Assembly: GCF_019649055.1 (NCBI RefSeq)
Contig: NW_026570293.1
Span: 620,001-684,000 of the forward strand
From: Paramacrobiotus metropolitanus
Taxonomy: Eukaryota > Tardigrada > Eutardigrada > Parachela > Macrobiotidae
Length of the DNA stretch: 64,000 nucleotides
Direction: 5' to 3'
Under the pieces are notes generated by a model. The model was not told the DNA's origin. It saw only the letters and a list, made by a program, of their open reading frames with translations, and did no database searches. Made by a program: the position numbers and the translations under genes. Below are positions 1-56,300 of the stretch, piece after piece; position 1 is the first letter of the stretch; each line of letters opens with the position of its first letter.

Positions 1-770
1 AATTGCTTTCGCTATATCACGGCCCAATTGTTCAGCTTTTGATTTGACCGCTTCTATCTCCTCTTCTCTCTTTTTATGAGGTCATTCTCATTACCGGTAA
101 CAGTGCGTGGTTCGAAAAAATTCGGGTCACGCTCTGACATCTCAGCGTCCGTACGCTGTTTCGAAAAGTCATCTTTATCTTCGGTAGCAGTGCGTGGTTC
201 GAAAAGGATTGTTGCAAGTCCTTTTGGAGGTACGCTCTGGTACTTTAAAGCTCGTTTCGGTATCTTTTTCCAGTGACCTTTCTGCCAAATTACCAGCCTC
301 CGCGTTCAACTTGATTGTGACTGCAGTTTCAAAGTCTTATCCTCTTTCCTTTTCCTTCCTCGCTTCTTTTTTGGTTTATCTCCGTTTAACCCATTCGTTG
401 ACCTTCTCCCATTTCAGGTAGCGGAGTGGTTCGAAAATGGCTTCTGTTGTGACTGAGTCATTTTCAGACTCCGCTCTGATTCGTCTTCTTTTCGTTAGCT
501 TTCTCCGTTTCAGGTAGCAGAGGTGGTTCGAAAAGATTTTCAAATCTTTTTGTTAGCTCTGTTCCTTTTCTCATCGGGTAATGGCGGATGCCATGGTTTC
601 AACCGGTCAATCGAAACCACTTTTAAGTCTGCTTCCTTCTTCGGATTCTGCTCGATGACCTCCGCTTCGTTTGTTCGCGGGAAGCTAAGAATTTTCCACA
701 CTTTATCGTATTTCGACTAAAGTCCGATTGGTTTTCTTTTTTCCTTGTTTCGTATCTTTTGGTAATCGTA
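1..770 (-). other. Tail of retrotransposon after integrase, FEPR-type repeats
   Basis: From about 770 down to 665 the minus strand still reads as an integrase C-terminal continuation, with a short stretch like the usual strand-rich tail (GDFVLIRLPKD). Below that the sequence is polar and frame-broken. A repeated block, GTAGCAG..CGTGGTTCGAAAA on the plus strand, occurs near 90, 185, 420 and 515; on the minus strand it encodes variants of F-E-P-R-T-A-T. The same block returns near 5,930 and 6,010, about 5 kb away in the protease-RT spacer. No envelope-like protein with signal peptide or membrane helix is visible. Function unknown. Confidence 0.55.
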
Positions 771-1801
771 TCAATACGAAATCTCCCACTTTGAAATTCG
801 GCTCCGATTTCTTCTTATTATAAATTTCCGCATTTTTCTCATATGCGTCTTTGATGTTACATCTCGCCACTTCTTCGGCAAGGTCAAGTTCTTTTCATGG
901 TCTCCACCCATTCGTCTGAGTTCCGTAATCATCGGGTATATTCGTTTTTGTGTAACCACATCTTCCGGCATTGTCATTTCTCTGCCGTGTAGCATATAGT
1001 ATGCTGAATATCCCGTTGTGGCGTGCACGACTCTGTTCATCGCCGAAATAACATATGGGAGATACTTGTTAAACTTTCTTTACTTCAGCTGTAAAGTGTC
1101 GTCCGCGATCCGTATGCAGGATGTGCGGTGCTCCGTGTACCAATATCACGTGCTTCACGAACACTTTAGCGAATTCTTTAGCCGTTGCCGTTTTCATTGG
1201 TACCGCATCACATATTTCGTCAGTTGGTCGATAAATACCGCTATGTACTTGTATCCACGTTTCTTCGTCGGTAACAAAGGTCCTTTCAAGTCAGCATATA
1301 CTCGGAAGAACGGATGTCCACTTTAATCTCTTGCAATTTTCAGGTGGACATTTCCTCGGTGTTTTACGGAACTGACATCCTTGACAGGCAGTATGTAATT
1401 CTTCACGTCTGTACTCATCCTGTCCCAGTAATATCGGAGTCTTATTGCTGACAATGTTTTCTCAAATCCCAGATGTCCTGCTGCTTTCTCGTCGTGCAAT
1501 GCGTGGATTATTGCTCTTCGCATTGACAACGGTACAACATATGACCTTTCAAGTTTTCCATTTTATCCTTTACTCGGTATAATATACCATTCCATAACTG
1601 GTAATGCACTTCAAATTTCGATCTTGTTTCCGCGTCTGGTAGGTGTTCCAATTCGTCTATGATCATTGCCAGATGGGGATCTTTCAACTGTTTATTCCGC
1701 AATTGCAAGTTTGAGTCATCAACCTCTTCTTCGTCACCTTGCAGGTTGACAATGCGAACTGTCGCTGTACTGAGTTCATTCCGTCCTTGATGACCTTGCA
1801 T
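771..1801 (-). pseudogene. Integrase of the gypsy element, frameshifted
   Basis: Integrase inserts the cDNA copy into host DNA. Seen here: an N-terminal leader (1508-1801) ending in a WNGILYR-type motif, a degenerate HHCC zinc-binding segment (1323-1529) with paired His at the start (HALHDEKAAGH) but with one of the expected late Cys replaced or shifted, a catalytic-core segment around 1200-1300 containing DLKGPLL and IAVFIDQLTKYV, which places two acidic residues at the expected core spacing, and a late core/C-terminal segment (771-1040) with TGYSAYYMLHGREM. These pieces lie in different frames, so no single product is made. The family assignment is strong from order and motifs; activity is unlikely. 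Confidence 0.8.
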
Positions 1802-2029
1802 CGTGGTAACGGTTTATACCGCTTTTCGCCTGTTTGGGAATCTCAACAGTTTGATTGGGCATTCGTTCAACGCTTGTGCCACTTTGTCCGTTTCCCAAAG
1901 ATCTCTATTCGCTCTATCATCAAGTCCGTGACCTTTCCATTCTGCATTTGAGATTCCGCGTCAAGTCCGGTGACCTTTAAGTCACTAACGGCGGGCAACC
2001 AACTTCTCACTCGGTTCACACCTTCGTTT

Positions 2030-2600
2030 TCAGCCGACTCGTTCGCCGTAGCTGAAGTGACCTTTAATCGTTCTCCCTCTGTTCCACCATCTGCAGGAAC
2101 AGCTGTCCAACAATTGCCGGTTCCTTCGTATCAAACTCCTTCTTGTAATCCTCGAAATTCGGAATCTCGTCAAATTCTTCTTCGTGACACGTCGGACCTT
2201 CAATTGGCGCTCTTGATAACGCGTCCGCGTTGTCACAATATTTCCCGGTTTGTATTCGATTTTAAATTGGTGACCTTGTAATGCCATTGCCCATCTTGTC
2301 AGGCGTGGGTTCATTCCGACTTTATTCGTCTCTGACCTTAACAAATTGGTCAGCGCCTGATGATCCGTCCTTACGGTGAATTCAGCATAATCAATGTACG
2401 GCTTGATTTTCTGACAGCAAACGACTGCCAGACATTCCCATTCTGTTACACCGTAATTCTTCTCCGCTCCATGTAGGACACGACTGGCGTACGCGATCGG
2501 ATGTCCATCTTGTGACAGTACGGCTCCGATTCCTTCTTTGCTCGCGTCGCATTCAATAACGGTCGGTTTCGCGGGTCAAACTTTGCCAGTACTGGACCTT
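2030..2600 (-). pseudogene. RNase H of the gypsy element, frameshifted
   Basis: RNase H degrades the RNA strand of the RNA/DNA hybrid during reverse transcription. The upstream border is marked by PVLAKFDP, a usual Ty3/gypsy RT-RNase H junction. The segment for the first catalytic Asp and the segment ending with tether sequence MALQGHQFKIEYKPGNI (2240-2344) are recognisable. A frame change separates PVLAKFDP from the catalytic part, and in-frame stops occur. Downstream sequence runs toward the integrase leader with strongly polar residues. Dead as a single reading frame in this copy. Confidence 0.75.
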
Positions 2601-2699
2601 CACACAACAACTTCTTCAAACTATTGAACTCTTCTTCATGTACTGCAGTCCAGTCCTTTTCACGTGTTTATCTTGTCTCAGCAACTCATACAAGTGGCA

Positions 2700-3590
2700 A
2701 GTCTTCTGTGCATATCCATTATGAACTTGCGATAATAATTCGCCAGTCAAGGAATGACCTTAACTGCCTTTCTGTTTGAGGCCGTTTGAACTCTGAGACC
2801 GCGGTGACCTTTTCCGGGTCCATACGAATTCCGTCTTCGCTGAGTATATGACCCAAATCCCATCTTGTCTCATCTCCAAATTCGCATTTCGTTGGCTTAA
2901 TCGTGAATCCGCTTCAACCAGACTCATTAAAACATTTCGCAGATTCTGCATGAAAATTTCCCAAGTTTTTCCGGCGAAGATACGTCGTCGATATACGAAA
3001 ACGCAACCCTTTCTTTTCGCTTTCGAGAGAACTTTATCCATACACAATTGAAATGTTGCTGGTCCGTTGCATACGCAAATGGCATTCTTTTAAATCGGTA
3101 CATTCCATCTTGTGTTACAAAGGTCGTCTTGTTGATTGACGCTGGATCCATTGGGATCTGCCAGAATCCACTTTGTAAATCCATTTTTCCGTAATATTTG
3201 TTGCCTGCGCACGCGTCAGGCAACTCATCCGTTGGTAACGGGTAATTATTCTTTCTCGTTAACTTGTTAAGCATGATGTAATTGACGCAAAATCTTGTTC
3301 CCATTGTTCCGTCGCCATTTTTCTTTACTGCCAATACGACTGGAAACTCCACTCGGCGTCTGACGGTTCAATTACATCTTGTGCCAACATCTCTTCGATA
3401 TGCTTCGTTATAAACTCGCGGCCTGTCCAACTCGTTCTGGCCGGGTTACATTTACTGGTTTCGCATCTCCCGTATCAATTACGTGGGTGACCCTTTCACA
3501 TCTCCATACGGTTTCTTTGATGTGGGTAAGACTTTCCAGAATTCCCAAAACGCGTTGTACACGTCGTTTTTCTGCTCTTAGGTAAGGTCA
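2700..3590 (-). pseudogene. Reverse transcriptase of the gypsy element, frameshifted
   Basis: The reverse transcriptase copies element RNA into DNA. The longest open part, 2927-3352, carries VVLAVKKNGD, FCVNYIMLNK, NNYPLP, then GKMDLQSGFWQIPMDP, a clear Ty3/gypsy fingers-palm series, and the YxDD catalytic box as SYIDDV near 2,970. Frame changes follow: the thumb sequence with DPEKVTAV and QLRSFL (2,740-2,830) lies in another frame, and a one-base loss seems to interrupt the next conserved block. The RT begins near 3,590 where sequence for an upstream HIDTG-like linker ends. Family call is confident; the gene is broken. Confidence 0.85.
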
Positions 3591-3599
3591 GGTCCCAAT

Positions 3600-3980
3600 T
3601 TCAGGTTTTCGATTATCTTTTAAGTTCAGCTTTCGTTGTCTCATCCACCTCAGGGTCCTGAGTACGTTCTTACTGTCCTGCGTTGACCTTTACATTCTCC
3701 ATATGTTCGTACGGGTCAACGTAGCCGAGAAGCTGATTTTCTTCACGATTCGGTATTTGCTACTATGATTTGCGATAACGATTTCAAAGTATTTTCCCCT
3801 GTGGTCCGTCACTCCTGCCAACGGTTGCACTTCAGTTTCCACTTGTGGGACCGGTGTAAACATCAACTTGTTTTGAGCCGGTGCATATTTTCCCATCTTG
3901 ACCTTTACGCGTGTGCAGTTTGACGGTTTCAACTTGATTCGTTGGTGCTGTAGACTTTGATCACGTCTTTCGACATTCTA
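3600..3980 (-). pseudogene. Pre-RT linker segment of gypsy pol
   Basis: The open stretch 3690-3932 (80 residues) includes FEIVIANHSSKYRIVKKN, which matches the beta-rich linker that usually sits directly before RT in Ty3/gypsy polyproteins (a V-x-N-x-S-x8-I-x-K-N pattern). It links the unknown polar spacer to RT. Two GTTGACCTTTA/TTGACCTTTAC variants of the element's AAGGTCA motif occur at its ends. No separate function is claimed. Confidence 0.5.
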
Positions 3981-4006
3981 GCTTTTCCACTTTCAATCTT
4001 CTGACT

Positions 4007-6391
4007 TTAATATCCTTTTCTTTTTTCTTCATCTCCTTCGTCATCTTCATCCAAGTCCATTAAATCCTCTTGCTTCGAAAGGTCACTTACACCTGAATCT
4101 TCCGAAGTTGTTGAGTTATCACTTGAACTCGTCCACTGAATCGAATTACTGCTCTCATATTCTTGTGCAGTAAGCTTTGTCAGCCTTTTCAAGTGGGCGC
4201 TCATCAACTCCTTCATCTTCCGATGAAAGGTCACTTTCGTTTTCCGCGAATCGCTAAGTTTTTCGCTTTAGATTTTTGAGCAGAGGTTTGTCCCTTCTTT
4301 TGCCTTTCGCCCGTTTCGTGCGGCGACTCTTGGTGACTCCTTGCTCCGAATTCTCGTTGGTGACCTTTCTGATTGATCGGAGTTTGACCTTTCTTCGTCC
4401 GATTTTGACTTTTCCAGTTCATTTATTTCTTCGCGGCTCGTTAATGGCTTTTCGGTCAACTCGACCGGCGGACATTCCTCACCGTTATCGAGTGACCTTT
4501 CCCGTTTTTTGCCTCAGTTACTGGGTTTTGTTGTTCGTTCGATATCCTTTCAACTTCCTCTTTGAACCTTTTCCACATTTCACCTCTATCCGTTAACATC
4601 TTGCAATATCGAAAGCCGACTTTGAACTTTCTTCTGTTTCATTCGATTGTCCTTCGGCTATCTCTTTAACTGGTTCCTCTTTCTCTGCTTCTTTGACAGT
4701 CCCTTTATTGGCTTCATCCTGTTGAACTGTTTCGTAACCTTTAGGTCGTTTAGGACCAACGAAAATGCAGTTTGCCATCAGTTCTTCGGTGACCCATTCA
4801 TCATTCGGAATCGTTTTACATGCATGTATCACCACCTCGTTCTGGGTAGTCCACTCCATCTGGATCTGGTGCAAGGTCACCTTTTCTTTTGCATTAATCG
4901 GTAACCTTCTTTCCGGGTTACCTGTAGTTCTCGCATTTCTTTTACGTCAAATTTGGGGATTTCTTCCTCGATTTCTTCCAGTATTCTCGAATGCTTTTCG
5001 TTTCCCTCTTTTAACGCGTTGTAGTACACTTCAAGTGATTCGTAGACAGGTGTACCAAGTCCTGCCGGGAAGATGATCGTTCTCCCTTCACCTTTATACA
5101 TGTGGTTCACACGGAAGTCCCAGAAAAGGTCAACTCTCGCTTCTTCCCACATTTCTCCTTCCTCGGTCATTTCTTCTATCTCTCGTTCAAATCTCCTTTC
5201 TGTTGCTACCGGATCGAGAGGATCTTGGATTCCTTTCTCGACACGTTGCAACCAATGGTTTACCATCTGCCTCTTCCAATTATAAACTTTCACATGACAA
5301 CCACGTTCGATATCTATTCCATGATACCGTTCGATGTGTGGTTTCCACATTTCGTTTGTCCGCATGATGCTTTTCGCTTTCTTTTGGGCATGACCTTTAA
5401 GGTCTGCTAATGCGGCATTACATCTTGGCCATTCTGAAGGGTCATCTTGAGAGGCATTTTCACAACATTCGCGCATTCCCATTGTGGTTGCACTCTGCAC
5501 GGATCCTCAAAGTAACCGTGGTGACAACTCCCGGCTCGTTCTTCTGGAGTTAATGTCCTTTGACTCGCTTCAGGTTTAACCTGTTCCTGTACTGTGGTAT
5601 CTTCCTCACATTCGATTGGAGTCACGCTTTTATCCTCAGAGGATATTTCAATGACCTCTGGTTCTTTTTTCTGTTCGGTGACCTTCATTGTTCAGTGCCT
5701 GTCGCGGATTTCGCTTGTGAACATCTGCTCCTCTTCAGCTATTCGTTTCCAAAACTCGTAACCTTTCACTCTTTTGTCCTTCCCGACTTTTAGCTGTCTT
5801 TATTTCCAGTGCCTCTGGTACTGGGATAGGCTTGCCCACTCCATGTCTGGCACAAGGATTGTTTCGCTGCAACTGCCGCTTCTTTCTGTGTGTAATTATC
5901 TCTTCAATCGTTGGTGACCTTTCGGTAGCAGGTCGTGGTTCGAAAAGGGTTCCTTTGAGAGTCACGTTCTGTTACTTCCTCTTGGCTATCTGATAGCCTT
6001 TCATTTTGGGTAGCAGATCGTGGTTCAGGTTCGAAATACGCTCTGGTTCAAGTTCTCAGCTGGTGACCTCGTCTTCCAAGTCTCTGGTAGCTGGTAACTT
6101 TTCGACTTCTTTTCTGTCTCTTGTTCCTCATCTGCTCATCTTCTGTGGATATGATCTTCTTCTGATTCCTTTCCTTTCGTTGACTTTTTGCATTTCGCTT
6201 TCCTTTTCTGGTGCTCTGGTACTGGGATTATCATTAATCTCGTTCTGCTGCACTCTCGTCATTCCCGGTGCCTCTGGTACTGGGATGACCTTCTCTTCCT
6301 TTTGTGTCAGCATTGTCCGATTTAATGTCTTTTCGATCTCCTGCTGAATCATTTGCAACTGCTCAAATGGTGACAATTCTTTTCGCGTCAT
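4007..6391 (-). other. Expanded protease-RT spacer, polar and repetitive, unknown
   Basis: Most Ty3/gypsy elements have a few hundred bases between protease and RT; here about 2.9 kb intervene. Readable pieces on the minus strand are acidic/Ser-rich (4007-4234, with LMDLDEDDEGDEE), Lys/Gln-rich (4231-4459), Glu-rich (4593-4880), a 207-codon open frame (4877-5500), and stretches carrying repeated PVPEA(P/L) peptides (5,810; 6,210; 6,270; 6,415). The pieces overlap out of frame, so the region is frameshifted or spliced. About a dozen exact AAGGTCAC octamers fall inside. I recognise no catalytic domain. Confidence 0.6.
4877..5500 (-). CDS. Unknown 207-residue open frame in protease-RT spacer
   Basis: This is the longest open frame between protease and RT. 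The N-terminal third is Cys-bearing (MRECCENASQDD, SEWPRCNAALADL) and continues upstream in another frame with further Cys/His (CHHGYFEDPCRV, QWECANV), so a Cys/His-rich module of about 70 residues may span the frame change near 5,410. The middle has aromatic-rich HIERYHGIDIERG and WKRQMVNHWLQRVEKG, then Glu-rich amphipathic helices and a Lys-rich end. The composition suggests a structured protein rather than random sequence. It belongs to the retrotransposon by position and strand. Function unknown; I do not match it to a named family. Confidence 0.45.
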   Translation of the reverse strand: MQSATTMGMRECCENASQDDPSEWPRCNAALADLKGHAQKKAKSIMRTNEMWKPHIERYHGIDIERGCHVKVYNWKRQMVNHWLQRVEKGIQDPLDPVATERRFEREIEEMTEEGEMWEEARVDLFWDFRVNHMYKGEGRTIIFPAGLGTPVYESLEVYYNALKEGNEKHSRILEEIEEEIPKFDVKEMRELQVTRKEGYRLMQKKR

Positions 6392-6535
6392 CTTTTCTTT
6401 TCGTTTCCCGGTGCCTCTGGTACTGGGATTAGCGTTTATTAAGTTTGAGCATTTCCTGTTTTACAAGTTCGGTGACCTTTCCGACTTGAACTTTGGCGAC
6501 TGGTTTGGGTCATCTTCTTTTTCTTCTTCCCTTCG

Positions 6536-6870
6536 TTATCCATCAGTACGAATTTCTTCTCCAGAAGTCGAATCCCAATAACACCTGTACGTCGTCACAC
6601 TTCGGTCGGACGTAGAATGAATGTTCGCTTGTCTTTTTCTTAAGGTCACTGGTGCTACACAGTAATGCGTCACCAGGAATCCTGACGTTCCGCTAATTCC
6701 ATTTATTTTCACCAATCTGTCTGGTGGTAATGGGACATATGGAGTCCATTCTTCTCGCAAAACGGTTTGCTGATCAGCGACGTCTCAGCGCCGGTGTCCA
6801 ACATTGCGTTGACCTTTATGTCTCCCACTTTCACTTCGTGTGTGTATGCTTCAATTCTCTTGGCAAGTTT
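6536..6870 (-). pseudogene. Retropepsin-like aspartic protease of the gypsy element
   Basis: The protease cleaves the element polyprotein. Near 6,790 the minus strand reads VNAMLDTGAETSLISK, containing the catalytic DTGA triad and the following hydrophobic strand typical of retropepsins. The open frame 6536-6760 then supplies the flap and C-terminal strands (YVPLPPDRLVKINGISG). The two parts are in different frames, so this copy is broken close after the active site. Upstream lies a long polar region; downstream lies the expanded spacer. Confidence 0.75.
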
Positions 6871-8738
6871 TCCATTTTGAATCTTCAAGTGTGAATCTTA
6901 CATTTCACAGGAATGATACTGGTCCCGGATCCATATCGGGAAGCACTTGTCCTTTGCTGGAGTGCTATGACCTTTCAGTATCTCGCTCAACTTATCAATC
7001 CTGTGTGGGACGTTAGTTCGAACATCGTAATATTTTCGCGGCTTTTCTTTTCGATTGCTTCTCTGTAGCCATTTTACCACTGGTGACCTTTTCACATTCT
7101 GCACTTGCTCATTTGCTTTTGTGCTGTGCATGACCTTTAGTCACTTCATTTATCGTCTGATGGATCAGTTCCTCTTTACGGTTTTCATTTCGTTTATCTC
7201 ATCTTCTCAATGACTTCACTTGTTATTTGGTCAGCTTGTTTCAGTTCATCTTCTTCGCTATCTTTCATCTCATCTGGTGACCTTTCATATGTAACCATGT
7301 CATATCCTTTTCGGTCATCCATTCGATCACCTTCGCGGACACTTCATTGTTCGTTTTCGTTTGATCAATTTGCGAAGACATCCCGTCTGTTCGGGCTGGT
7401 GACTTGTCATTGGCATCCTTTGCAGTGCTTCCGATAAGTCCCGTGACCTTTCAACTGCGCTACTCTGTTGCATTTGCGCCATCTCATTTGACCTTCCTTT
7501 CGGTTCATTTTGCGCTAAGTCCTGTGACCTTTCGTTGCGCTTCATGACAAATCCGCCGTTTGTCAGCTTTTGTATAGGGACTTTTCTCCATAATTCGGCG
7601 GTTTATCCTGTGGCGGAGCATTACGTGAATGATTCCAGTCAGCGCATGTCTTCTTATATTCCTCTGCGTTGAATGCTGGGACTGGGTTCGGTGACCCTGC
7701 GCTGGTTTCCCGGTAACCAACTCTTCCAGTCGCTTTCTTTCACATTGCGTTCGCAACTGTTGCATGTCCCAGTAATCCTCTTGTGACATTCGCGCTTTCT
7801 GTTTCGCTTTTGGCGTTACGGGTATCCACATCCCGTGATTGCCATTCGGTCTGTAGGCCACTTTTTGCCACTTCTCCTTCTGTTGCAGCGTTACGTCCAC
7901 AAGTGAGTCGTCGGGTTCTGTGCCATTTCCTTATTCTTTTGCTGCGCTGTTCGCAGTGTCAAGTCTGTTTCTTGACCTTTTAACGACGCTGTCGCCGTGA
8001 CCTTTTGCATTCGCACTCGCTCCTGACCTTCTTGGGCTTTTCCAACAGAAGGTGACCTTTCATCTTTACTAATAACGTTGATATTCTGCTTAATCCATTC
8101 TTGCCTTATTCAGCTTCTCTTCTTCGTCTTCTGAACAATTCCAAAACTTTGGCTTTGCCCCCGTAACAATCGCAACGGCTCCTTCGCCTTATCGTTTTCT
8201 GCCAAAATTTCGGAATTTCGCGTGTTGCTCATTTCCTCTTGCGCAGTATCGTTCTGCGGTGGTGAATTTTGGTCTTCGATTTGCCATTTATCTGTTTCGA
8301 AACCATTCGTGGTGCATTTCCACTTCTTCTGCGGTATCGGTTTGCGGTTTCTTTGGTTTAACAGCGCTTGTCGAATCTTGGCATTACGTAATGCACGACG
8401 TTCAGCTAACACTTTCTCGCTGCAATACGGTGACCTTTCATTTTGCTGCACTTTTGCAGTGTCGCGCTACCGTCACGACAATTTCCACTCGCAGTACCAT
8501 TCTGCGGTGACCTTTGGTCCCGTTGCACGTTTCCACTCGCAGTACCATTCTGCGGTGACCTTTTGCCTGTGACGGTATCCCATAACCGTTCCATTTCCTT
8601 TTGTGATGACGGCATCCATATAGCCGTTTCTCTTTGCTGTGGCGGCATCCATCTAGCCGTTTCTTGTGGTTGCGGCATCCATATAGCCGGTCCACTTTGC
8701 TGCTGACGGCATCCATATAGCCGTTGCAGTGGTCACAT
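6871..8738 (-). other. Polar Gln/Arg/Lys-rich region between nucleocapsid and protease
   Basis: Several short overlapping open frames (6898-7131, 7505-7900, 8110-8451) are rich in Lys, Arg, Gln and Ser and interrupted by frame changes. The best stretch, 7505-7900, reads WQKVAYRPNGNHGMWIPVTP and has a CERKRLEELVTGKPA helix. No known domain is apparent. At least ten exact AAGGTCAC octamers fall here, often preceded by CGG or TGG on the plus strand. By position it is part of gag-pol of the same element. Confidence 0.45.
8440..8720 (-). repeat. Short tandem repeats in gag-pol
   Basis: Two kinds of direct repeat are visible on the plus strand. A unit of about 45 bases with CACTCGCAGTACCATTCTGC followed by GGTGACCTT occurs twice (about 8,480-8,565), with a related partial copy at 8,735-8,770. 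A second unit, GGCATCCATATAGCCG with a 13-20 base spacer, occurs four times (about 8,602-8,722). Each copy of the first unit ends in the AAGGTCAC octamer, which shows one way the octamer spreads locally. Confidence 0.8.
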
Positions 8739-9647
8739 TCACTGCAGTACCATTCTGCAGTGGTGACCTTTATCCGGTGGTTTAGGGTCGGGTCGATCAG
8801 TAGGCTCACCGGTGCCTACTGATCTTGCCCGTTTCCTGAACCGGCGCTCCACCTTGTTGCGCGCCCTGCACATGTCCTTGTTGTTGTCCGATATCATTGC
8901 CGGGTTAGGATTCTGTCCGCCACCGTTATTATATTGGCCACCACCCTGTTGGTAGTTTCCCCGCCCGCCATTTTCCGGCCTCCTCTGGTTTCCGCGGCCA
9001 AAGCCTCTGTTCCTTCCTCTGAAGCCGCCGCGGCCAAACCACCACGGCATAGCCACCGTTCTGCCACCGCCATTTCCATTTCCGTAGTTTCCGTTTCCAT
9101 TCCTTGTTGGTTTGGAAGTTTGCTTTGTGCTGGTACCCATTGGGTGATGAGGTCATATCCGTTTGCGACCGCTGGCCAGCCACCTATAGCTCGGAGGCGT
9201 TGCCACTCGTTAAAGGCAAAACAGATTCGGGTTCTGTTCTGGTGGTGTATTGGCGAACTTGCACCCTGTGTCTGATGGTTGCCGTACATACAGTACTGGC
9301 ACATCTGCACGTTGTTCGCCACCCATCCATCAATCATCTGAAACTTGAATCCAGTTCGTGACCCTGTTGCTGTTGATTCCTCTGAAGTTTCCTTGACCTT
9401 GACCTTGTCCCTGATTCTGGAAGTTTCCTTGACCTCCGTTCCAGTTTCCATTTCCGTACCCATTTCCGCCAGTTTCCGTACCCCTCCTTGTTGTGGTAAC
9501 ACATTCATAGGGACCATATTCTGAGGTGCGGTGGGCTACATTCTGGGAGCCACATTCTGGGCTACTGGCCTCACCTGGGCCGCTGCCTGTATCGCCGCCA
9601 CCATTGCGTATGTTAACGGTTGTCCCGTCACTGTCGATAAAGGTCAC
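8739..9647 (-). pseudogene. Gly/Asn/Gln-rich nucleocapsid-like gag segment
   Basis: The minus strand encodes long runs rich in Gly, Asn, Gln and Arg (8739-9140, 9330-9647), with GNYQQGGGQYNNGGGQNPNP and RGGFRGRNRGFGRGNQ, as in nucleic-acid-binding RGG-type tails. A zinc-knuckle start, CQYCMYGNH (CX2CX4H), lies near 9,300, but the last Cys is not at the expected place, so the knuckle is degenerate or unusual. Frames switch several times. By order it sits after capsid and before protease, which fits nucleocapsid. Confidence 0.6.
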
Positions 9648-9649
9648 TT

Positions 9650-10606
9650 CTTTGGTGACCTCTGGTGCCGGGGCCTCCTGCGGTACTCGACCGGCTGCTG
9701 GACTGGTGCAGCTGCCATCCTCTGTTGCGGTACATTTTCGACTTGACCTTGGCGGATGGTCACGTATTCCTGATTACGTTGACCTTTAGGCGCTTTATAT
9801 TTGTCTTCTCCCCGCCGACCAGTGACGGAAGAAATCTTTGATTTCGGTTGGAGTCCTGCACTGTTGCGTGCGCAGTGCCTTATAAAGGTCATTGTCCTCT
9901 ACATCCTTCGATCAGGAAACCCGACTGCCTTTTCAGTGATGATCCTTTTCGCCTTGTATTTCATAATCGCTTGATAAAACTGATCAAGAGATTCTTTTCC
10001 AAGTCAAATTTTCTTGCCATGGCTTCTCGTAATCCAAGAACTTCTTCATCACGATCTCCATATTCATCTTTAAACTTGGCCATCCATTCTGTTATTGTAT
10101 ATTCTGTTTCCTCTGGAGTGCGATCTCTCTCTTCGAACCAGGTTTTCGCTGGTCCTTTCTGCCGCTGGCTATCTCAATTAATATCTGGTCGTCGGTGAGG
10201 TGATACGTTCGTTGGGTATCTCTAACCAGTTGTGTCCAGCCATTCACTGCGTCGCGACTTCCATCAAAGGTCACTAGGTTTGTCTTGCGCCCCATCGATT
10301 GAGTGCGTTCACTAATCTCTGTGTCGCATCATTGTCTTCTGCCGTACTGGAGTCACTATCGTCATCGTCCTTATTTCGCTTCGCTTTTCCGTAGCGGGAC
10401 TTTTGGGCGTTCTTGCCGGCTAGACGGTCTATCCTGTTTCCTTTCATCAATGAAGATTTTCGTTTCAATATGTGGATGAAATTGGGTGGGATCACCACGA
10501 TTCGAATGGGAATAAGTTTCCGATGGTGGCTCCTTGTCATCTTTGACCTTTTCCCCGTCCTTTTCGTTTTGACACTTCCTCTGCCAGTACCGGTTCGTAG
10601 CGGCAT
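9650..10606 (-). pseudogene. Capsid (retrotransposon gag) segment, frameshifted
   Basis: The minus strand shows a Ty3/gypsy capsid pattern: TFDGSRDAVNGWTQLV (about 10,240-10,280), a second part around 10,150-10,050 including EYTITEWMAKFKDEYGDRDE, and then VLGLREAMARKFDLEK near 10,000. These match the capsid helix series W..L......Y and L..W...F...Y. The pieces lie in at least two frames. Upstream, 10274-10606 is Lys/Arg/Asp/Ser-rich and probably a linker from the coiled-coil ORF. Confidence 0.7.
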
Positions 10607-10907
10607 ATCAAAGTGAAGCTTTGCCCGTGCCCGTTTCGTGCGCCTTGCTAACTGGGCGGGGCGATTCCTACTGTTGAAGTCCTGACTCCATATTGCAGAA
10701 GCTGTTCATCTTTGTGCTTATTAGACATAACAAGCGCCTTATTCTCATCCTCAAGGCGACGGACTTTCAACTGGACTTCCTCTTTCTCCGTTTCAAGTTC
10801 TGATTCTCCTCCTTGACCTTTAACATATGTTGGTGGAGTTGAAAGTCTTCTCCTGAATGACCTTTTCAGTGTCATTCTCCACCTTTTAATGTGTTCCGCC
10901 AACTGGG

Positions 10908-12557
10908 TCACATCCTTTCCAGCTTCGTGTATTCCTCGACTGCTGCTTTCAGTTGGTTTTTCGTCTGGGTGACCTCATCTTCTCTTGTCATCACCGTTTG
11001 GGTCATATCAATCAGCTCCGTGTTGACCTTGATTATCTCCTGCGTCTTCTGGTGGACTGATTGTTGCCACTCCTTATCTTTCAATTCAAGTACCGTGACC
11101 TTTTCATCCAGGAGGTGTGCCTCGTGTTCCCACCTCATGCCTTGCTCGGCAATTGTCTTAGCAGTCTTTTTCAACTCGGTATTCTCTTCGGTGACCTTTT
11201 GAACATCTTCTTTCAACGACTTGTTCTCTTCCATCACCTGCTTAATTTCGTTCTTCAACTGCACACCTTCAGTGGCTGTAAGCTCCCTCAGGTCCTTAGC
11301 CACTTTGACAGCGTCGTCGGCTCTCCTCTGATGATCCTGTGATTCTTTTTGAAGGGTTCCGATGTTCTCGTCCCGTAACTTCAATTCGTTTCTCAGCTTA
11401 AACACCTCATTGGTGTTTGTCAACAATCGTTGAGTAGCGTCGACGAGTTTGGCCGCGTATTCATCTCGCTTGGCTTCCGCTTCGGTGACCTTAAGTTTCA
11501 GTGAGTCACATTCATCCTTCAATTCGGCTAAGTGCCGTGACCTTTCCGCTGATTCTTCTGGCATGCTCTCATTAAGGTCACTAACTGCAAGATGACCTTC
11601 CATTTCTCTGTCATCTGCCATTTTCAAATATTCATCAGCCAATTCCTTCTGTCTTTCATATTTCACCTTCCAACCGTCTGCGGCACTTTGAAGGTCACCC
11701 TGTTGCTGCTCCAGATCGAACAGGCGTGCTTCAAGTGTCGTCAGTCTTTCCCGATATTCCTGTTTTCGCTTATCCGCTTGACGTTCATTGACTTCAAGTT
11801 CATTTTCCAATTCACTGACACGTCTCCTCAAAGTTGACGTGGGACTGTTCGGTGACTGTGGTCGTACACTGATGACCTTTCCAGTTTTTGTCCGTTCAAT
11901 GAGGTGCTCCGGTATGTCCTTGAATGGTGTCTTACCTTCAGCACGGTCAGCTTCCTTCATGGCAGTTTGAAAAGACATATTCATCGTTGCTTCATCATCC
12001 GTGAAGTAGGACTCGTTCGATTCGTCTGAGACCATTGGAGTTGCCCAAAGGTCATCACCTGCGGTCTTATCGTCCAATGAAAGGTCATCCAGTCCCAGTT
12101 CAGCCAAATTCTCTTCGGTGACCTTTATGTTTCCATCTTCCACTTGGGCCAGGTTTACATTTTTATCCTGCTCGTTTGTTCCGCTGGTGGTAGCATCCAG
12201 CTGTGATGCTGCCACTGCTTCCGCTCTTCTTTCTGTGGATTTTTCCTCCCCAGTGACCTTTGTCTGGTTCATCGGTTCACTTCCCGAGCGCCTTCTGATA
12301 AGTGCTATCAGAGCCTCGTGAATCCTTCTTCTCGAATGCCTTGGGCGCTCGAGTGTTCCGCTCATGTCCAACTGGGCGTGAGTACGGGTACAGATCCTTT
12401 TGTACGGATTTGGTGCGCTTTGCTGTGAGCTGCGGGAGCTTTGCTTCCTGACTGCTGTTAGATGTCGGTTCCTCTTGTTCTTTGTCCATGTTGATCGGAT
12501 AACTTGGACGCTCCTGCCAATTGTTCTCACACACACGTTATTGTATGGTTTATTCAA
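10908..12557 (-). CDS. Intact 549-residue coiled-coil ORF at 5' end of gypsy element
   Basis: This is the only long undamaged frame of the element. Residues 1-110 are basic and Ser-rich, 110-230 are acidic and polar, and about 235-549 form near-continuous heptads rich in Glu, Lys, Leu and Gln, a long coiled coil. It precedes capsid, so it is probably an N-terminal Gag extension or a separate ORF1 that multimerises; this is inference. The frame contains many AAGGTCA cores, read as KVT six times but also as RSR, GHL and, in the opposite orientation, SDL, GDL and DDL. The start chosen is the first Met; later Met at about codon 69 (MSGTLERPRHSRR) is a good alternative. Intactness amid a decayed pol is notable. 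Confidence 0.75.
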   Translation of the reverse strand: MNKPYNNVCVRTIGRSVQVIRSTWTKNKRNRHLTAVRKQSSRSSQQSAPNPYKRICTRTHAQLDMSGTLERPRHSRRRIHEALIALIRRRSGSEPMNQTKVTGEEKSTERRAEAVAASQLDATTSGTNEQDKNVNLAQVEDGNIKVTEENLAELGLDDLSLDDKTAGDDLWATPMVSDESNESYFTDDEATMNMSFQTAMKEADRAEGKTPFKDIPEHLIERTKTGKVISVRPQSPNSPTSTLRRRVSELENELEVNERQADKRKQEYRERLTTLEARLFDLEQQQGDLQSAADGWKVKYERQKELADEYLKMADDREMEGHLAVSDLNESMPEESAERSRHLAELKDECDSLKLKVTEAEAKRDEYAAKLVDATQRLLTNTNEVFKLRNELKLRDENIGTLQKESQDHQRRADDAVKVAKDLRELTATEGVQLKNEIKQVMEENKSLKEDVQKVTEENTELKKTAKTIAEQGMRWEHEAHLLDEKVTVLELKDKEWQQSVHQKTQEIIKVNTELIDMTQTVMTREDEVTQTKNQLKAAVEEYTKLERM

Positions 12558-12599
12558 GTATCCTAAAGATCACTTTGTACTTTGAAATTTTTCAAAGTC

Positions 12600-13075
12600 T
12601 TTGTTAAAGGTCACTTTTCGGTTGAAAAATTTCGACCAAGTCCCGTTTAAAGGTCACTTTTTCGGTAAAAAGTTCGAGAGGTTTGCCCTAAAAGGTCACT
12701 TTCGGACAAAACTTCGAAACCGTTTTTACAGTTTGAAACACGTTAGCAAATGAAATCCTACAGCTGCTGATATCGCTGTATCACTATTCACTTCAATTTC
12801 ACTTCGATAAAGGTCACCTTTCGTCAGTTTCAGATCACAAAGGTCACTTAAATAAGTCAATTAGGACAATTCCAACTTTTTAGTAAAGGTCACTTTTCAG
12901 GTCAAAAGTCCTGTTCTGGTCTCAAAGGTCACTTTCCGACTCAGTTCAACTCAAAAGGTTGCTTTCTGACTCAATTTCTGTTAAAGGTCGCTTTCCGCTC
13001 AATTCAAGTTAAAGGTCACTTTTAAGCTCAATTCGTCACTTTGTCTCAACCTCAAAAGGTCACTTCTCAACTCAA
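12600..13075. promoter_or_regulatory. Array of ten AAGGTCAC-type motifs upstream of gag
   Basis: Copies of (A)AAGGTCAC(T/C)TT begin near 12,606, 12,650, 12,690, 12,809, 12,838, 12,884, 12,925, 12,984 (GGTCGC variant), 13,012 and 13,056, all in the same orientation on the plus strand, spaced about 29-120 bases. AAGGTCA is the established extended half-site bound by monomeric nuclear receptors of the FTZ-F1/ERR type. The array lies in the element's 5' leader, just before the coiled-coil ORF, where a transcription control region is expected. Receptor binding is inference. Confidence 0.6.
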
Positions 13076-13079
13076 TTCA

Positions 13080-13640
13080 AGTCTAAATTTCAGTTATCTC
13101 ATCTTAGATCAAATTTCCCATTACGACTCGAGTTCAACGGAAAATCCCCATTCGGGTTGTTTACTTCGTTCTGATTGGTCCGCTAGCTCAAAAATATTCA
13201 GTTCAAATGTCGATCAATCACAGCTCAGATAACTGACCAATCCCGTTTCACCATTTAAATTTTATATGAGCCTGACGTCACGGTCAACGGCCAGACATGC
13301 GTGCCGCGTGCAAAGCTCCGCCTACATCTACGCTCAGCTCAAAACGGACCAATAGAAATTGACAATTTTACCGTCTAACCAATCCCGTAATTAATAACGG
13401 TTTTTCTACCTGTTAACCGTCCGTTCCACGGGAAAGTGATCCAGATGATCCAATTCTTCTCCACCGTCCGTTCCCGCGCTGCCGCTTTTCCGTAGCGGTT
13501 GTGCCGCCCGCTTTTCAAATGCTACTGTGCCGGCTGACTGCCGTAGCAACAGTAGTGGTGCTCTACTCCAGTTTGGGAGGAGTCTGATCTGTCTTTTCCC
13601 GTGCGCCCCTTTTAGCGCTTCGCCGCTTGTGGCCCACGGC
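13080..13640. other. Leader between motif array and putative PBS, no gene seen
   Basis: This stretch holds no convincing gene. It has CG-containing blocks (13,265-13,330), several CCAAT-like boxes (ACCAATCCCG near 13,235 and 13,378, GACCAATAG at 13,350) in both orientations, and an open minus frame (13406-13678) without recognisable domain. It is best read as the untranslated leader of the gypsy element. Confidence 0.4.
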
Positions 13641-13642
13641 TT

Positions 13643-13779
13643 AGGATTCGCTGAATCCTTGCCGAGTATCAGCGACACCAGTGTAGGTCTTCGCTGAAGA
13701 CTCTACACCGAGGAACGCTGACGACTGAACTCTTGCACTCTTGCACAGCAGTGGAACAGCACAGGTCTTCGCTGAAGAC
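13643..13779. other. Three GCT-loop hairpins at putative primer-binding region
   Basis: Three perfect inverted repeats share the loop GCT: AGGATTC-gct-GAATCCT (13643-13659), GTCTTC-gct-GAAGAC (13687-13701, extended by GTGTAG/CTACAC flanks to 13681-13708), and GTCTTC-gct-GAAGAC again (13765-13779). On the minus strand TGGTGTCGCT starts at 13,680, immediately after TACAC; a TGG start next to a CA-ending LTR is the usual look of a tRNA primer-binding site. The priming tRNA was not identified. Confidence 0.5.
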
Positions 13780-14332
13780 ACTGTACCGAAAACCAAAGCT
13801 GGAAAATCCACGTCAGATGAGGCCGTTCACCGCTTGTGGTGTGCGCTTTGCTTTTCGAAGGACCTGTGCTTTACTGGTCGGAAATCGCATCAAATAACAG
13901 GCCAACTTTGCCTGACACAAATCAAATCAAATCAGAGAACCGCTGTCGGCTCTGCTACCATCTAATGCTAGATCCAACTGTGATCCAGATACGGAGACCT
14001 AAACGGAATAGATCCCGTGGAAGCGAGCGATACGATATGGATCGCGAGCTATGCGGAAACACAAACGTCGCACCGTAAATCGCTGACTTTTTAATATTGA
14101 AAAGTCTGGAGAACAGAAAATCAATAATGATCGGCGCAGCTCGATCGTAACACGTGGAGCCAATTCCACACTGTGTAACACTGTGCAGCACGTGCTATGC
14201 CGCGCCCACTAACACAACTCAAGCCAATCAGAAGAGACACAACACAGACACGTAATCCTAAGGCGTAGCGCCACAGGCGTAGCGCCACTGACGTGAACGC
14301 TAGTGATCCCGGTCTCACAATGTGATGCATTT
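13682..14332 (-). mobile_element. Putative LTR of the gypsy element
   Basis: If the primer-binding site starts at 13,680, the LTR should end near 13,682 on the minus strand (...TACA). A candidate other end is TGTGTTAAATGCATCACA starting near 14,332, giving TG...CA termini and about 650 bases. There is no second LTR in the window to compare, and no target duplication could be checked, so the left boundary is weak. Confidence 0.3.
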
Positions 14333-14420: not shown

Positions 14421-14680
14421 GTAAGGCGCCATCCATAAATTACGTCACGCAAGTAGGGGGAGGGGGGAGGTCCTGAAAGCGTTACTGTTTGTTACAAGGG
14501 GGAGGGGGGCTTTAAAAATTTGTTACGATTATGACGTCAACATGCTATATCGATGGAGGGGTTCTAATTTTGTTACGTAACGCTCAGGGAGGATCTCGGT
14601 TTGTTAGCATTCGCGGCCACAGGGGGAGGGGTATCAAAATGTCCACTCGCGTGACGTAATTTATGGAGGCCGCCTAAGCC
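14421..14680. mobile_element. Small inverted-repeat element (MITE), copy 1
   Basis: Terminal inverted repeats ATCCATAAATTACGTCACGC (14431-14450) and its complement GCGTGACGTAATTTATGGA (about 14,649-14,667) bound about 250 bases with G-rich runs (GGGGGAGGGGGG) and no coding frame. The CCATAAATTACGT end is shared with the next element. Confidence 0.8.
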
Positions 14681-14714
14681 ATTGCGAAAAGTGGCCAGGC
14701 CCGGTATATCCGCG

Positions 14715-14949
14715 TAAGGGGGCATCCATAAATTACGTACGCAGAAAACCACGGTTTTTTCAATTCCTCCTCCCCCTTCGTAGCGGTCCGTCACGTTTGC
14801 TTGACCCTCCCCCTGGTCCGCTCCAATCGTAACATGGAGCTGCCACCACCTCCCCCCCCTGGGTTGCCGGGGCCGTCACAGCTTGTCACGTTTTTTGGAC
14901 CCGTCCCTCCCTGGTTCGCTGCGTACGTAATTTATGGATCCCCCCTAAG
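14715..14949. mobile_element. Small inverted-repeat element (MITE), copy 2
   Basis: Terminal inverted repeats GGGGGCATCCATAAATTACG (from 14,718) and its near complement TACGTAATTTATGGATCCCC (ending about 14,944) flank about 230 bases including C-rich runs. It lies 35 bases from copy 1 and shares its ends but not its interior. Its G-rich and C-rich runs are complementary in orientation to those of copy 1. Confidence 0.8.
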
Positions 14950-43790: not shown

Positions 43791-45099
43791 ACGTTTAAAT
43801 ACTTACATCACGTTTTATAACACTTAAATGTTCCTTTTCGACAAAATGACTGTTATTTATTTCCCGTGAACCGCATCGTGCTCAGCCAAAGAACTGGTTT
43901 TCTGCAAAAACCCCGCCTAAATAGTCATCTTAGTTATCTTAGTTTTCTTAGTTGTCTGCAGTTTATTTCAAACCATCATTTAAACACGTGTTAGAGAAAC
44001 AGTTACAAAAACAACAGCTCGTTTTCTTAGTTATCTTAGTTATCTTACTTAGCATCGGAGAAGGTTGGCGCAGTATACACTAACCAGCATTTCATTCTCG
44101 CGTATCCCGTGTGGTGGTCGGGAAATCGAGTGCAGCCTTGCTCGAATCGCGCCTGCACACCACCGTTGGCTAAGGACAACCCTTTTTCGCGCACTGCAGT
44201 GCACTGATGCTGTTACTGGTGACGGCTTGCTGATAGGGAACTTTAGCTGTAGCAGAATCTCCGAACGCTTTTGCATTATGGCGAACAAAGAAGTTCGTAA
44301 ACACGACTTTTTGAACGCTGGTTATCAAAGCTATGCATTTGAGATGTTCGTATGGATTTGAACATCTGACCTTTAAAAACAAGCATTGTTAGAAATGCTT
44401 AATATTACCCGTAAAATATGACTACCCTATATTATAGTATTACTCTATTTATAGGTAGTAAATTAGTAATACAGTATTATACTACTTGACGTGCTACACT
44501 ACATGATGATAAAATTGATCGTGGCCAAGACCACTGCCCTGCCAACTGCCCATTGTGAGCCCTTGCCCATTTTTTGTGTATAAACTACACACAACTGCGC
44601 TGTCTTTCGTGACCTTTAAATACCGTACAGTAGGGAGTTATGATCTTGACTTATTTGCCACTTGACCTATTGGCTTGACACCCCTTGAACGCGGATTCTT
44701 AAAAGGCCTTTCGCAAAACCAAAAATTAAACGCATTTTGTTTTAATTGAATTTGTGGTGCTATTTTTATTTCATAAACGCGTATACATTACAGATTGAAA
44801 AGACAGATACATTACAGATTTGTGGTCGACATGTCTACGTATTTTCGAAAGTGCCTTTACTTGGCTAGAAAGAGAAATTGCTTTGGATTTCCTTTTCTGG
44901 AGTGGTCTCTGGCTCCCTCTTCGAAACCGCTTAATTACAGCATTAACAGCAATCTGGGTCAGTGAACAAATATGCGAAGCCGGCACTGACTGGTTTTACC
45001 TGATTGCCTACTGGCTTGTTCTGCCAATGGAGCCGCATCAACGAGTGCAAGTACTTTAAATTACCCATCCTGCTCTAATATATAAACCCGTTTTTTCGG

Positions 45100-53300: not shown

Positions 53301-56300
53301 GAGTCCTGCAGTTATCCACCGGCATCGACGACGTGGGCACTGTGGTATGGGAGCTGGCACTGTGTCTGCTGCTCTCATGGATCCTGTGCTACTTTATCAT
53401 CTGGAAAGGCACCCAGTCCAGCTCCAAAGTGGTCTACATCACGGCCACCGCCCCCTACATCATGCTCTTCATCCTGTTCATCCGCGGCGTCACCCTGCCG
53501 GGCGCCATCAATGGTATCATTTATTACATTTATCCCGATTTTTCACGCTTAGCCGACGGGAAAGTATGGATGGATGCCGGCACACAAATCTTCTTTTCAT
53601 ATGCAATCTGCACATCCACCATCGTCGCCATGGGCTCATATAACCGTTTCCATCATAATTGCTACAGGTTGGTCATATAGGCCCCAGCGTTCGCAACACG
53701 CGTAACCGCCTTTTCAGTGATTCTCTGTTTGTGTGGGTTTTATTACACCGCGATCAATACAGCGGCTTGATCGTATCGCGTAACGCCACTGATTCAGGGA
53801 ACAACATTTCCATATGAAATCCTCCTTACACTTCATGTAGTCCGTAAATACAACTTTTTTTTCAGCTAACCTATTTAATTTCAAATTAAATCACTAACAA
53901 CAAAAATCTGGTGTGAAGACTGTCAATTATTAAGTACTAGTACCGATAGTTTTGCCGTCTTTCTGTGTCCGAAAAGTGATAAATCTTTAATTTCTCAGTA
54001 TTGGTTTTGTTTGATGGATCCAGTTTGCTAAAAAAGTTTCTTTAAACCATTTTTATTTATTTAATGGGAAAATCTTTCTAAAAATATATTTTCATTTAAT
54101 ACTAAGTAATTCTTTTAAAAAAATTGTATGCCAAAGTCACCGGCCAACTGGTTCAGTTTACGCAAAAGTATGGCCAGGGTCAAAAAGAGGGAGGAATTTT
54201 GTGAGGGAGGAATTTCACTGTGGTCAAAAAGAGGGAGGAATTTTTAGAGGGAGGAATTTTACTGTGGTCAAAAAGAGGGAGGAATTTTCGAAGAAGTACT
54301 CGGTGACCTCGAACCCGGGTCCCTGAGGTCGCCAATAAGATTTTCACTGTTATATACAGATTGACGTGCTGAGTCGAACTGAAGTACCCGAGGACCTCGA
54401 ACCCGGGTCCCCGAGGTCGGCAATGAAATTTTCACTGTATATATGGAGCTTTCACGTGATGAGTCGAACTGAAATACATGGGGACCTCGCACCCGGTTCC
54501 CCGAGGTCGCCGATGAGATTTTCACTGTAGATATACCGTTTGACGTGCGAAGTCGAACTGAAGTGCTCGAAAATTCCTTAACCGGGTTCATGAATATGAC
54601 ATCAGAGTTTGTTGACATTGACGCTGAAGGTACTGAAATTATCTAATGTCACCGTTTTTTTCCTAATGTTATCTCCGAGTCATTTGAAATTTTAAATTCG
54701 ATTTTTAAAGTACTTTCGAGTAGGTTTTGCAATCCTTAGTTCCTGAAGTCAGCAGACTCATTTTCATTTGTCAAACTGATTTCTAAATTTGTTTGTCGAA
54801 TTGTGTTTCTAAAGCTGTTTCAAATTTTCTTGATTTTCGTGATAGATTTCGGCAGTTTCGCAGTCTTATCCGAAACTAGTCTTCGCTTAACGCGAAGTGG
54901 CTAGCAACTCAATCCTTCTGCGAAAACGGGCATACCGTCGACGCGTTTCACTTCTAGACAAAAAAGTAGCATATGACATATAAAGAAATGATTTTTGTAC
55001 TTTAAAATGAGTACAGTAATGGTAACGCATTTGTTGTTGCTGAGAAATTAGCTTTTAAAGTGAAAAATTTGAAGTTGACAGACGCACTGGCGTTCTGATC
55101 AGGAATCAAACTCGTTCCCACAGTGTTGTCGGGAATAAACCACCAGATCCCAGTTCACTGTGGAGTGTCCCAAACTGTACTTTACAGTACGAACCAAATA
55201 ACTGCACGACCAAACTCTGTATATCTCGCATAACCAAACTATTGCAGATAGCCCACAGCTCACCACACAGACCAACTTCCGTTGCAGGTGACCAAACGAC
55301 TTGCCATAAGCCCAACACAAAGCACTGACCAAACTTAGCGCGAGCGGAGAGACTTGGAAGGGCAGGACCAGTCTTGTGCGTTGTAGTCTACGGAGCTGTT
55401 ATTAAATTTGAATAAAATTTATCCTCTTCCCGAAGTGCTCTCCAGCTTTGGAGAGTAGCCCAGTAACCACACAACCAACACACCGACTACCTGTCGTCCT
55501 TTTGCGCTCTGCTTATAAAGTCGATTTTTTACAGGATACAGATGTGAAAAAAAATATTCTGAAACGGCCATTTTATAGAGTGAAGTATTAGAAGCTTATT
55601 ATACGGACAGAATTTTGGTTGATAAAAAACAGAACAAAAAAAATCGCGCGTCCGATCACTTCGGCCAGCGTCATTTCGGCCGAGGTTCACTTCGGCCCGC
55701 ACTCATTTCGGCCACCGCTCATTTCGGCAGCAGGACATTTGGCCATCTTAAGTTCCTAAGGTTTCCTAGTTTTTACTATGTTGCTTCGGTTTTCTCAGGT
55801 TTCTTAGGTTTTCATAAGTTATCCATACGCTTCTTAGGTTTTTGAGGTTATGATCTTATGTTTCTTAGGTTTTCGTATGGTTTCTCAGGTTTCTTGGATT
55901 TTCCCCCTTTTGGTTTTTTTGGTTTTGTTTGGTTTCCTTAGGCTTTCTTAGGTTTTTTTAGATTCTTAGATTTCTTAGGTTTCTTGGGTTTTCTTGGGTT
56001 ATTCTTAGGCTATTGACGCTGGGATAGCAAGACAGCGTCGTACAGGCTTACGAGTGTACGAGATTTTGGTTGCTTATGTTGCCGCTAATTGGTTGATAAG
56101 TGCTAGCTTCTATGGCTCACTAGCGCCAGATTGATCCCATGTGAATTGCGGCGTTATCTCTCTCGAATTTCGATGTGCAATTTAGTCTTGACTGGAACAT
56201 CTTTGAAATTGCAATTTAACAACAACATCCTGAATCTGAGATCTCTGGTGTCTTCTAGTAGCGAAAGCATTAGTGTGTACCTACCGGAAGTCACATCCCT

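Follow-up and report, generated by a model that had tools for sequence, protein, structure and literature searches.

A conserved receptor-type DNA word dispersed through a long Ty3/gypsy-type element of the tardigrade Paramacrobiotus metropolitanus

Why should a retroelement carry one short DNA word, AAGGTCA, again and again throughout its genes? The question is raised by a stretch of 64,000 nucleotides (the window) from the tardigrade Paramacrobiotus metropolitanus (RefSeq assembly GCF_019649055.1, contig NW_026570293.1, positions 620,001 to 684,000), the left part of which is occupied by what is, to judge from its sequence, a Ty3/gypsy-type long terminal repeat (LTR) element that lies on the minus strand, measures about 24 kb and crosses the left window edge. 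A reading of the letters without database searches (the sequence-only reading) had reported about 44 exact copies of the octamer AAGGTCAC/GTGACCTT in the first 13.1 kb and two in the other 51 kb. Exact counts on both strands gave the same figures, 44 in positions 1-13,100 and 2 in the remainder (13,101-64,000). The observation is real, and it is stronger than first stated. AAGGTCA was counted 76 times in 1-13,100 and nine times in the remainder; the cores beyond those of AAGGTCAC number 32, which is somewhat fewer than the "about as many again" first supposed. Among all 8-mers of 1-13,100 the commonest was AAAGGTCA, with 55 copies versus 8 outside.

The excess depends on the model used for comparison. 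Summed over body and leader, about 0.44 copies of AAGGTCAC are expected under an order-1 Markov model and about 1.7 under an order-2 model, which already absorbs part of the repeat; the octamer is enriched under both, and the original estimate of a 100-fold excess over about 0.4 expected copies holds for order 1 (near 100-fold) and shrinks to about 25-fold for order 2. In the body (window 1-12,550), AAGGTCA was found 53 times in the sense orientation of the element (1.4 expected with order 1, 3.8 with order 2) and 14 times in antisense (0.46 and 0.63, respectively), so that enrichment was similar in both, 38- and 30-fold with order 1 and 14- and 22-fold with order 2. The leader holds nine copies, compared with 0.22 or 2.3 expected. 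Of the 7-mers that occur 8 times or more, AAGGTCA had a 32-fold excess, and the first non-overlapping 7-mer one of about 8-fold. A further 33 copies are present in the neighbouring 10 kb to the left (L011), bringing the element copy to about 109. Density is far from equal across the genome: AAAGGTCAC has 19,414 copies in the 169.8 Mb of the genome, about 0.11 per kb, and 47 copies in 22 kb of the element, about 2.1 per kb, and the 44 octamers lie well above the ten or so that the sequence-only reading had set as a lower limit. Outside the element, two AAAGGTCA were noted at window 44300-44700, a low-copy region (2 places).

Are these sites maintained, or simply numerous? A 601-base probe from the element matched 40 genome places with 81-100% identity (40 scored of 148 candidates). 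From these, 19 were chosen over the identity range, with one 10-kb piece each, which together with the window copy gave 20 copies; the compared piece corresponds to window positions 3.3-13.3 kb, and only collinear BLAST pieces were used (one copy, L027, aligned over 5.4 kb). Identity to the window was 0.93-0.99 in AAGGTCA cores and 0.83-0.93 in flanks, with the core higher in 19 of 19 copies. Eighteen copies retained 47-60 of 59-64 sites intact, compared with 16.7-38.3 expected from flank identity, and L027 retained 27 of 37 (11.5 expected). In sense sites the substitution rate was 0.012-0.052 at positions 0 to +7 and 0.073-0.183 in flanks; position -1 had a rate of 0.072, merely the low end of the flank range. 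The antisense sites had rates of 0-0.063 at position -1 and at positions 1 to 6, versus 0.045-0.208 in flanks. Terminal-branch rates, calculated from triplets of nearest copies without a consensus, were 0.0163 for cores and 0.0511 for flanks; cores were lower in 20 of 20 copies, with core/flank ratios of 0.05-0.68. The word stands at 88 positions when all 20 copies are considered (not counting 2-13 sites per copy which could not be placed in register), and at 44 of these it is present in 16 copies or more; for the reversed word and for each of 12 shuffles the positions numbered 1-20, of which 0 or 1 were kept to that extent. Conservation of motif positions among copies, which the sequence-only reading had proposed as a check, was thus found for the 10-kb piece.

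A cleaner test of selection than core versus flank is provided by third codon positions inside the motifs of the gag-position frame (553 codons, window 10908..12569, minus strand), which contains 13 AAGGTCA, nine sense and four antisense. Its assignment as gag rests on position and on codon-position constraint, there being no Pfam match over cut-off. Substitution rates at codon positions 1, 2 and 3 were 0.044, 0.041 and 0.124; gag is therefore under coding selection and the flanks are not neutral. Within the motifs, 16 of 470 third positions had changed (0.034), compared with a rate of 0.123 outside, and a rate as low was obtained in 1 of 5,000 random 7-mer sets. Of the 13 sites in gag, ten have stayed intact in 17-20 of the 19-20 copies; those at 11024, 11574 and 11691 are intact in 1, 12 and 8 of 20 copies, respectively, which indicates that sites turn over. 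Across the 10 kb that were compared, the AAGGTCA sites are under selection; for the remaining 3' stretch of about 10 kb, seen in one copy, selection on the sites would be expected likewise.

These results bear directly on the suggestion that the word is a short repeat spreading neutrally by slippage, tandem duplication or gene conversion. Tandem units of 28 bp are present in the leader, and several repeat families surround sites; most body sites, however, have unrelated flanks, and the conservation of cores against flanks and at third codon positions contradicts neutral spread as a full account. Slippage fits the leader and 3' arrays only, since the sites of the compared piece are selected (terminal-branch rates, gag third positions), and as an explanation of the whole pattern neutral spread appears very improbable. 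The leader and 3' arrays would have grown by tandem duplication, and the body sites would have arisen singly and been kept where the protein code tolerates them. Still less credible is a repeat at the protein level, in which a conserved peptide such as KVT would mimic repetition of a DNA word: seven of nine sense sites in gag are read in a KV(T/N/I) frame, but KGH/KGQ and ERS/KRS frames are used elsewhere, the peptides encoded by antisense sites are different ones, the leader lacks a long open frame, and it is the third codon positions of the gag motifs that are conserved.

Which protein could recognise such a word? In its enriched form the word reads AAAGGTCA with C, T or A as the next base. 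In the window body and L011, the base after AAAGGTCA was C in 39, T in 23, A in 14 and G in no case, and that before AAGGTCAC was A in 39, C in 3, T in 3 and G in 2 cases. In the same sequences (kept apart) AAAGGTCAC occurred 39 times, with 0.22 expected; its 21 one-base inner variants came to 7 in total, compared with about 4.5 expected, i.e., they were not enriched. Over 22 kb of the element, AAAGGTCA was found 79 times (1.05 expected) and CAAGGTCA 9 times (0.74 expected); G before AAGGTCA (9 versus 0.90) and T (6 versus 0.44) were likewise enriched far less than A. Genome-wide, AAAGGTCAC exceeded its reversed word 5.6-fold (19,414 versus 3,461). The response form of FTZ-F1/ERR receptors is TCAAGGTCA, and CAAGGTCAC is contained in TCAAGGTCA plus C. 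The sequence-only reading had regarded AAGGTCA as the extended half-site of this class; as a nuclear-receptor half-site, present beyond chance, the word stands, while the class is not supported at position -1, where A precedes 55 of the 76 sites of 1-13,100 and C 8, and CAAGGTCAC shows no enrichment in the genome over its reversed-word control (1,895 versus 1,871, 1.0-fold). AAAGGTCA is the NGFI-B response element (NBRE), the monomer site of NR4A receptors (Nurr1/Nur77), according to the part of the source consulted (PMC8080818).

The sites could be read in DNA or in RNA. As had been noted from the letters, the motif lies in both orientations; the 67 dispersed body sites (window 274..12260) comprise the 53 sense and 14 antisense copies. 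Where the sequence is open over 100 codons or more, sense sites fall in three frames (11, 10 and 7 sites) and antisense sites in both TGA-avoiding frames (3 and 5). Changes in sense sites were A to G in 20 cases (three positions) and C to T in 12, versus G to A in 31 (two positions) and T to C in 26; these are raw counts, not corrected for mutation bias, and they do not favour wobble-tolerated changes. Taken together, similar enrichment in both orientations, the use of several frames and this lack of preference for wobble changes fit a protein reading double-stranded DNA, which is the most likely mode. A signal in the transcript, AAAGGUCAC in the body and GUGACCUUU in the leader and 3' region, bound or pairing for packaging, stability or translation, would gain from the leader and 3' cluster being opposite to most body sites, with which they could pair; the enrichment of antisense body sites to the level of sense ones and the uncorrected wobble counts speak against it. 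An RNA-level role seems unlikely, and the packaging signal considered at first is disfavoured by the enrichment of both orientations.

From the observed selection on the dispersed word over the compared 10 kb we infer a reader and an effect. AAAGGTCA with C, T or A behind it would be a selected, dispersed binding site through which a sequence-specific protein reads the element as double-stranded DNA. The reader may be an NBRE-binding nuclear receptor (NR4A type) of the host, or a different receptor with a preference for A in front of AGGTCA, and dense occupancy of the transcribed body could promote transcription or keep the chromatin of the element open. The genome gave 63 matches to the zf-C4 domain. 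By eye, none of the 63 places coincides with the 40 listed element copies, and a zf-C4 domain inside the element was rejected as a candidate on this ground. The host translations include, judged by eye, what we take to be NR5A-like, two ERR-like (L033, L036), RXR-like, COUP-TF-like and NR2E-like receptors. The best matches to a typed NR4A domain were two exons on contig C45, one with 86% identity over 29 residues and one with 73% over 49, compared with 66% for the next best match; by identity, the host has an NR4A-like domain at C45. Since the word is a receptor site and is used by another repeat type as well (see below), a host receptor is favoured. We would tentatively put forward a dispersed, selected array read by an NR4A-like host receptor, by which the element might be kept transcribed or unsilenced, as the leading candidate, though we stop short of calling it probable. 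A silencing tag of the host, another early suggestion, is unlikely, since the element conserves the sites.

The main rival is a reader encoded by the element, an accessory protein which would bind the word throughout the element and either lift its silencing or coat the DNA and guide it. Precedent comes from VANDAL transposons of Arabidopsis with their VANC anti-silencing proteins, according to the sections seen of PMC5735166 and PMC10398659, and this precedent favours an element-encoded reader; in the former text VANC21 binds a nine-base motif arrayed one-way in its own transposable element, like the leader here. Downstream of integrase the element has open frames of 1,199 codons (L011:4882-8478) and 736 codons (L011:2340-4547), both on the minus strand, and the C-terminus of the 1,199-residue protein weakly resembles linker histone (PF00538, E 0.0039, below cut-off). 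All 14 of its protein-database relatives (7,991 candidates scored) are from Paramacrobiotus metropolitanus. The model of the C-terminus shows the order helix-helix-helix-strand-strand; its predicted local distance difference test score (pLDDT) of 36.9 makes it unreliable and too weak for a fold search, and it proves nothing. The N-terminal model (pLDDT 72.8) had no match in the PDB at E <= 0.001, nor did the accessory protein have a PDB sequence match. The word, moreover, equals a known receptor site and is shared with a repeat with terminal inverted repeats (TIR), and VANC motifs, as far as the portion seen of PMC5735166 describes them, are mainly in non-coding regions. Such a reader is conceivable, with a probability clearly below that of the host receptor.

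Several findings weigh against a symmetric protein reader of DNA which acts on transcription. The leader (9 of 9 sites) and the 3' cluster (6 sites) have a single orientation, which a symmetric DNA reader would not need; tandem growth in 28-bp units explains the one-orientation leader at least partly. No AAGGTCA lies in the LTR or in the ~890 bp that follow, which is odd for a plain promoter role. Regular spacing of sites was considered and rejected: in the body it looks random (coefficient of variation 1.01, versus 0.98 with a standard deviation of 0.10), and helical phasing was weak and not clear in a scan over 21 periods. Antisense positions 0 and +7 (0.108 and 0.103) were conserved no better than flank, and the window copy itself has the weakest core/flank ratio (0.68, from 5 changes). 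Finally, isolated forward sites at C1:1-1.78 Mb numbered 35, about twice the 18.4 of the reversed word (9.6 were expected from CAAGGTCAC density); with an excess of only about twofold over the control, the word may belong mainly to mobile elements.

Close direct pairs, AAAGGTCAC-N5-35-AAAGGTCAC, number 1,407 genome-wide, versus 9 for the reversed pattern. Among 22 pairs taken from those listed, seven with spacers of at least 26 bases (C1:277451, 1370469, 1819057, 2159326, 2164005, 2164861 and 2165212) match the fetched loci at 0.70 or less without gaps, near the reversed-spacer control, where the comparison covered other element copies over the fetched 10-kb piece only. Four of these seven lie at C1:2159-2166 kb. 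Among the pairs listed, leader-like pairs on the opposite strand precede body pairs at C1:2159-2166, 2479-2486 and 4067-4074 kb, and this layout probably represents a related, diverged family with the same arrangement. AAAGGTCACGTSGCRACCTAAAGGTCAC, which holds the word twice, has 26 copies, 16 of which form eight pairs, minus then plus, 2.7-7.8 kb apart, and are thus arranged like the ends of a TIR-type element carrying the word twice at each end (C1:2686082-2688853, C9:493889-498337, C24:406698-410586 and five others). Within the window, tandem arrays of ~90-bp and 44-bp units at 54178-54562 recur at 57347-57654 in reversed order, apparently as reverse complements; they resemble TIR element ends, with a degenerate CTTAGGTTTT array between them.

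The carrier was delimited by a repeat of 366 columns and 92% identity, which joins window 13957-14319 to L011:39-403; because it stands at both ends, the element extends over ~24 kb, of which the window contains the 5' part (1..14319, minus strand, with Pfam matches). The sequence-only reading had taken it to be 13 kb long; it continues for about 9.6-10 kb to the left, where the 3' part lies on the minus strand in L011 (contig C73:610001-620000). The 5' LTR, its edges approximate, occupies 13961..14319 (minus strand) and contains no AAGGTCA; beside it, at 13950..13960 (minus strand), is a putative primer binding site, TGGTAGCAGAG, presumably complementary to animal initiator tRNA-Met. The leader array (12607..13063, plus strand) consists of 9 AAAGGTCAC in one orientation (GTGACCTTT in the element sense strand), partly in the 28-bp units. 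At the other end, six neighbouring sites near the 3' repeat (L011:683-1092) share one orientation, and the next site, 78 bp on, is opposite. Minus-strand stretches were matched to aspartyl protease (6709..6897, PF13650 over cut-off), reverse transcriptase (2927..3367, PF00078, E 3.2e-6, 27.4 bits, just under the cut-off of 29.6; no AAGGTCA), RNase H (2030..2575, PF17917, E 9.2e-31, over cut-off; three AAGGTCA) and integrase core (1069..1290, PF00665, E 0.014, 16.1 bits, under the cut-off of 32.6; no AAGGTCA). This is the Ty3/gypsy order, with reverse transcriptase and integrase below curated cut-offs. An accessory frame of 209 codons without Pfam match (4877..5506, minus strand) lies between protease and reverse transcriptase, and similar text was seen by eye in P0076 and P0078. 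The pol region at 1000-3400 is broken over several frames in this copy, in contrast to gag and the 3' part with their long open frames; either decay or the indel errors of a long-read assembly could explain the split frames (Canu, BUSCO 72.9%, according to excerpts of PMC11191345). Adjoining the 5' LTR, at 14424-14946, are two pairs of inverted repeats, one nested in the other (31 and 38 nt, ~90%), possibly a small TIR element.

On balance we incline to the view that the genes of an animal retroelement carry a dense address of receptor type, written by the element itself, with ~109 AAGGTCA in one copy of ~24 kb, selected wherever compared, in several reading frames and in either orientation; almost every stretch would then be bound by one sequence-specific protein deciding between expression and silencing. 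If true, the uptake and Chi words of bacteria would have a eukaryotic counterpart here, and the case would address the question how mobile elements escape or exploit host control by means of DNA sequence. In this animal element, selection on a short word within coding sequence is strong enough to hold third codon positions, which is also a warning that third-position constraint in mobile-element genes can stem from DNA signals. With diverged copies in good number and a class of candidate readers to start from, the question is experimentally tractable. Among the matches listed from 5.39 million open-access papers, the coverage of which leaves out subscription papers, there was no description of the element or the motif array. 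One of the sources, PMC11071193, deals with different tardigrades, and its passages make no mention of Paramacrobiotus.

Comparison with known systems shows likeness and difference in each case. With Ty3/gypsy elements the carrier shares repeats at both ends, a site like a primer binding site and matches to protease, reverse transcriptase, RNase H and, under its cut-off, integrase in order; it differs in its length of ~24 kb, its long accessory frames between protease and reverse transcriptase and past integrase, and its motif array. The NBRE is matched exactly by AAAGGTCA, but ~109 AAGGTCA (79 with A before, in 22 kb) lie inside mobile-element genes, rather than a small number in a promoter. 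Bacterial DNA uptake words and Chi sites are short words dispersed in coding DNA and kept by selection, as is the word here; they belong to a different domain of life, and the tardigrade word appears to be confined mainly to mobile elements. The closest demonstrated case found is that of VANC in plants, where, in the parts of the papers available, a short word of nine bases likewise occurs at high density across one transposable element family, with one-orientation tandem arrays in non-coding parts. A VANC-type motif would be mainly non-coding and rare in other transposable elements, which does not describe AAGGTCA: here the carrier is an animal retroelement, most sites are in the coding body (67 of 76 outside the leader, 13 in the gag frame), the word is a receptor site common to a TIR-type repeat, and its reader is a predicted one.

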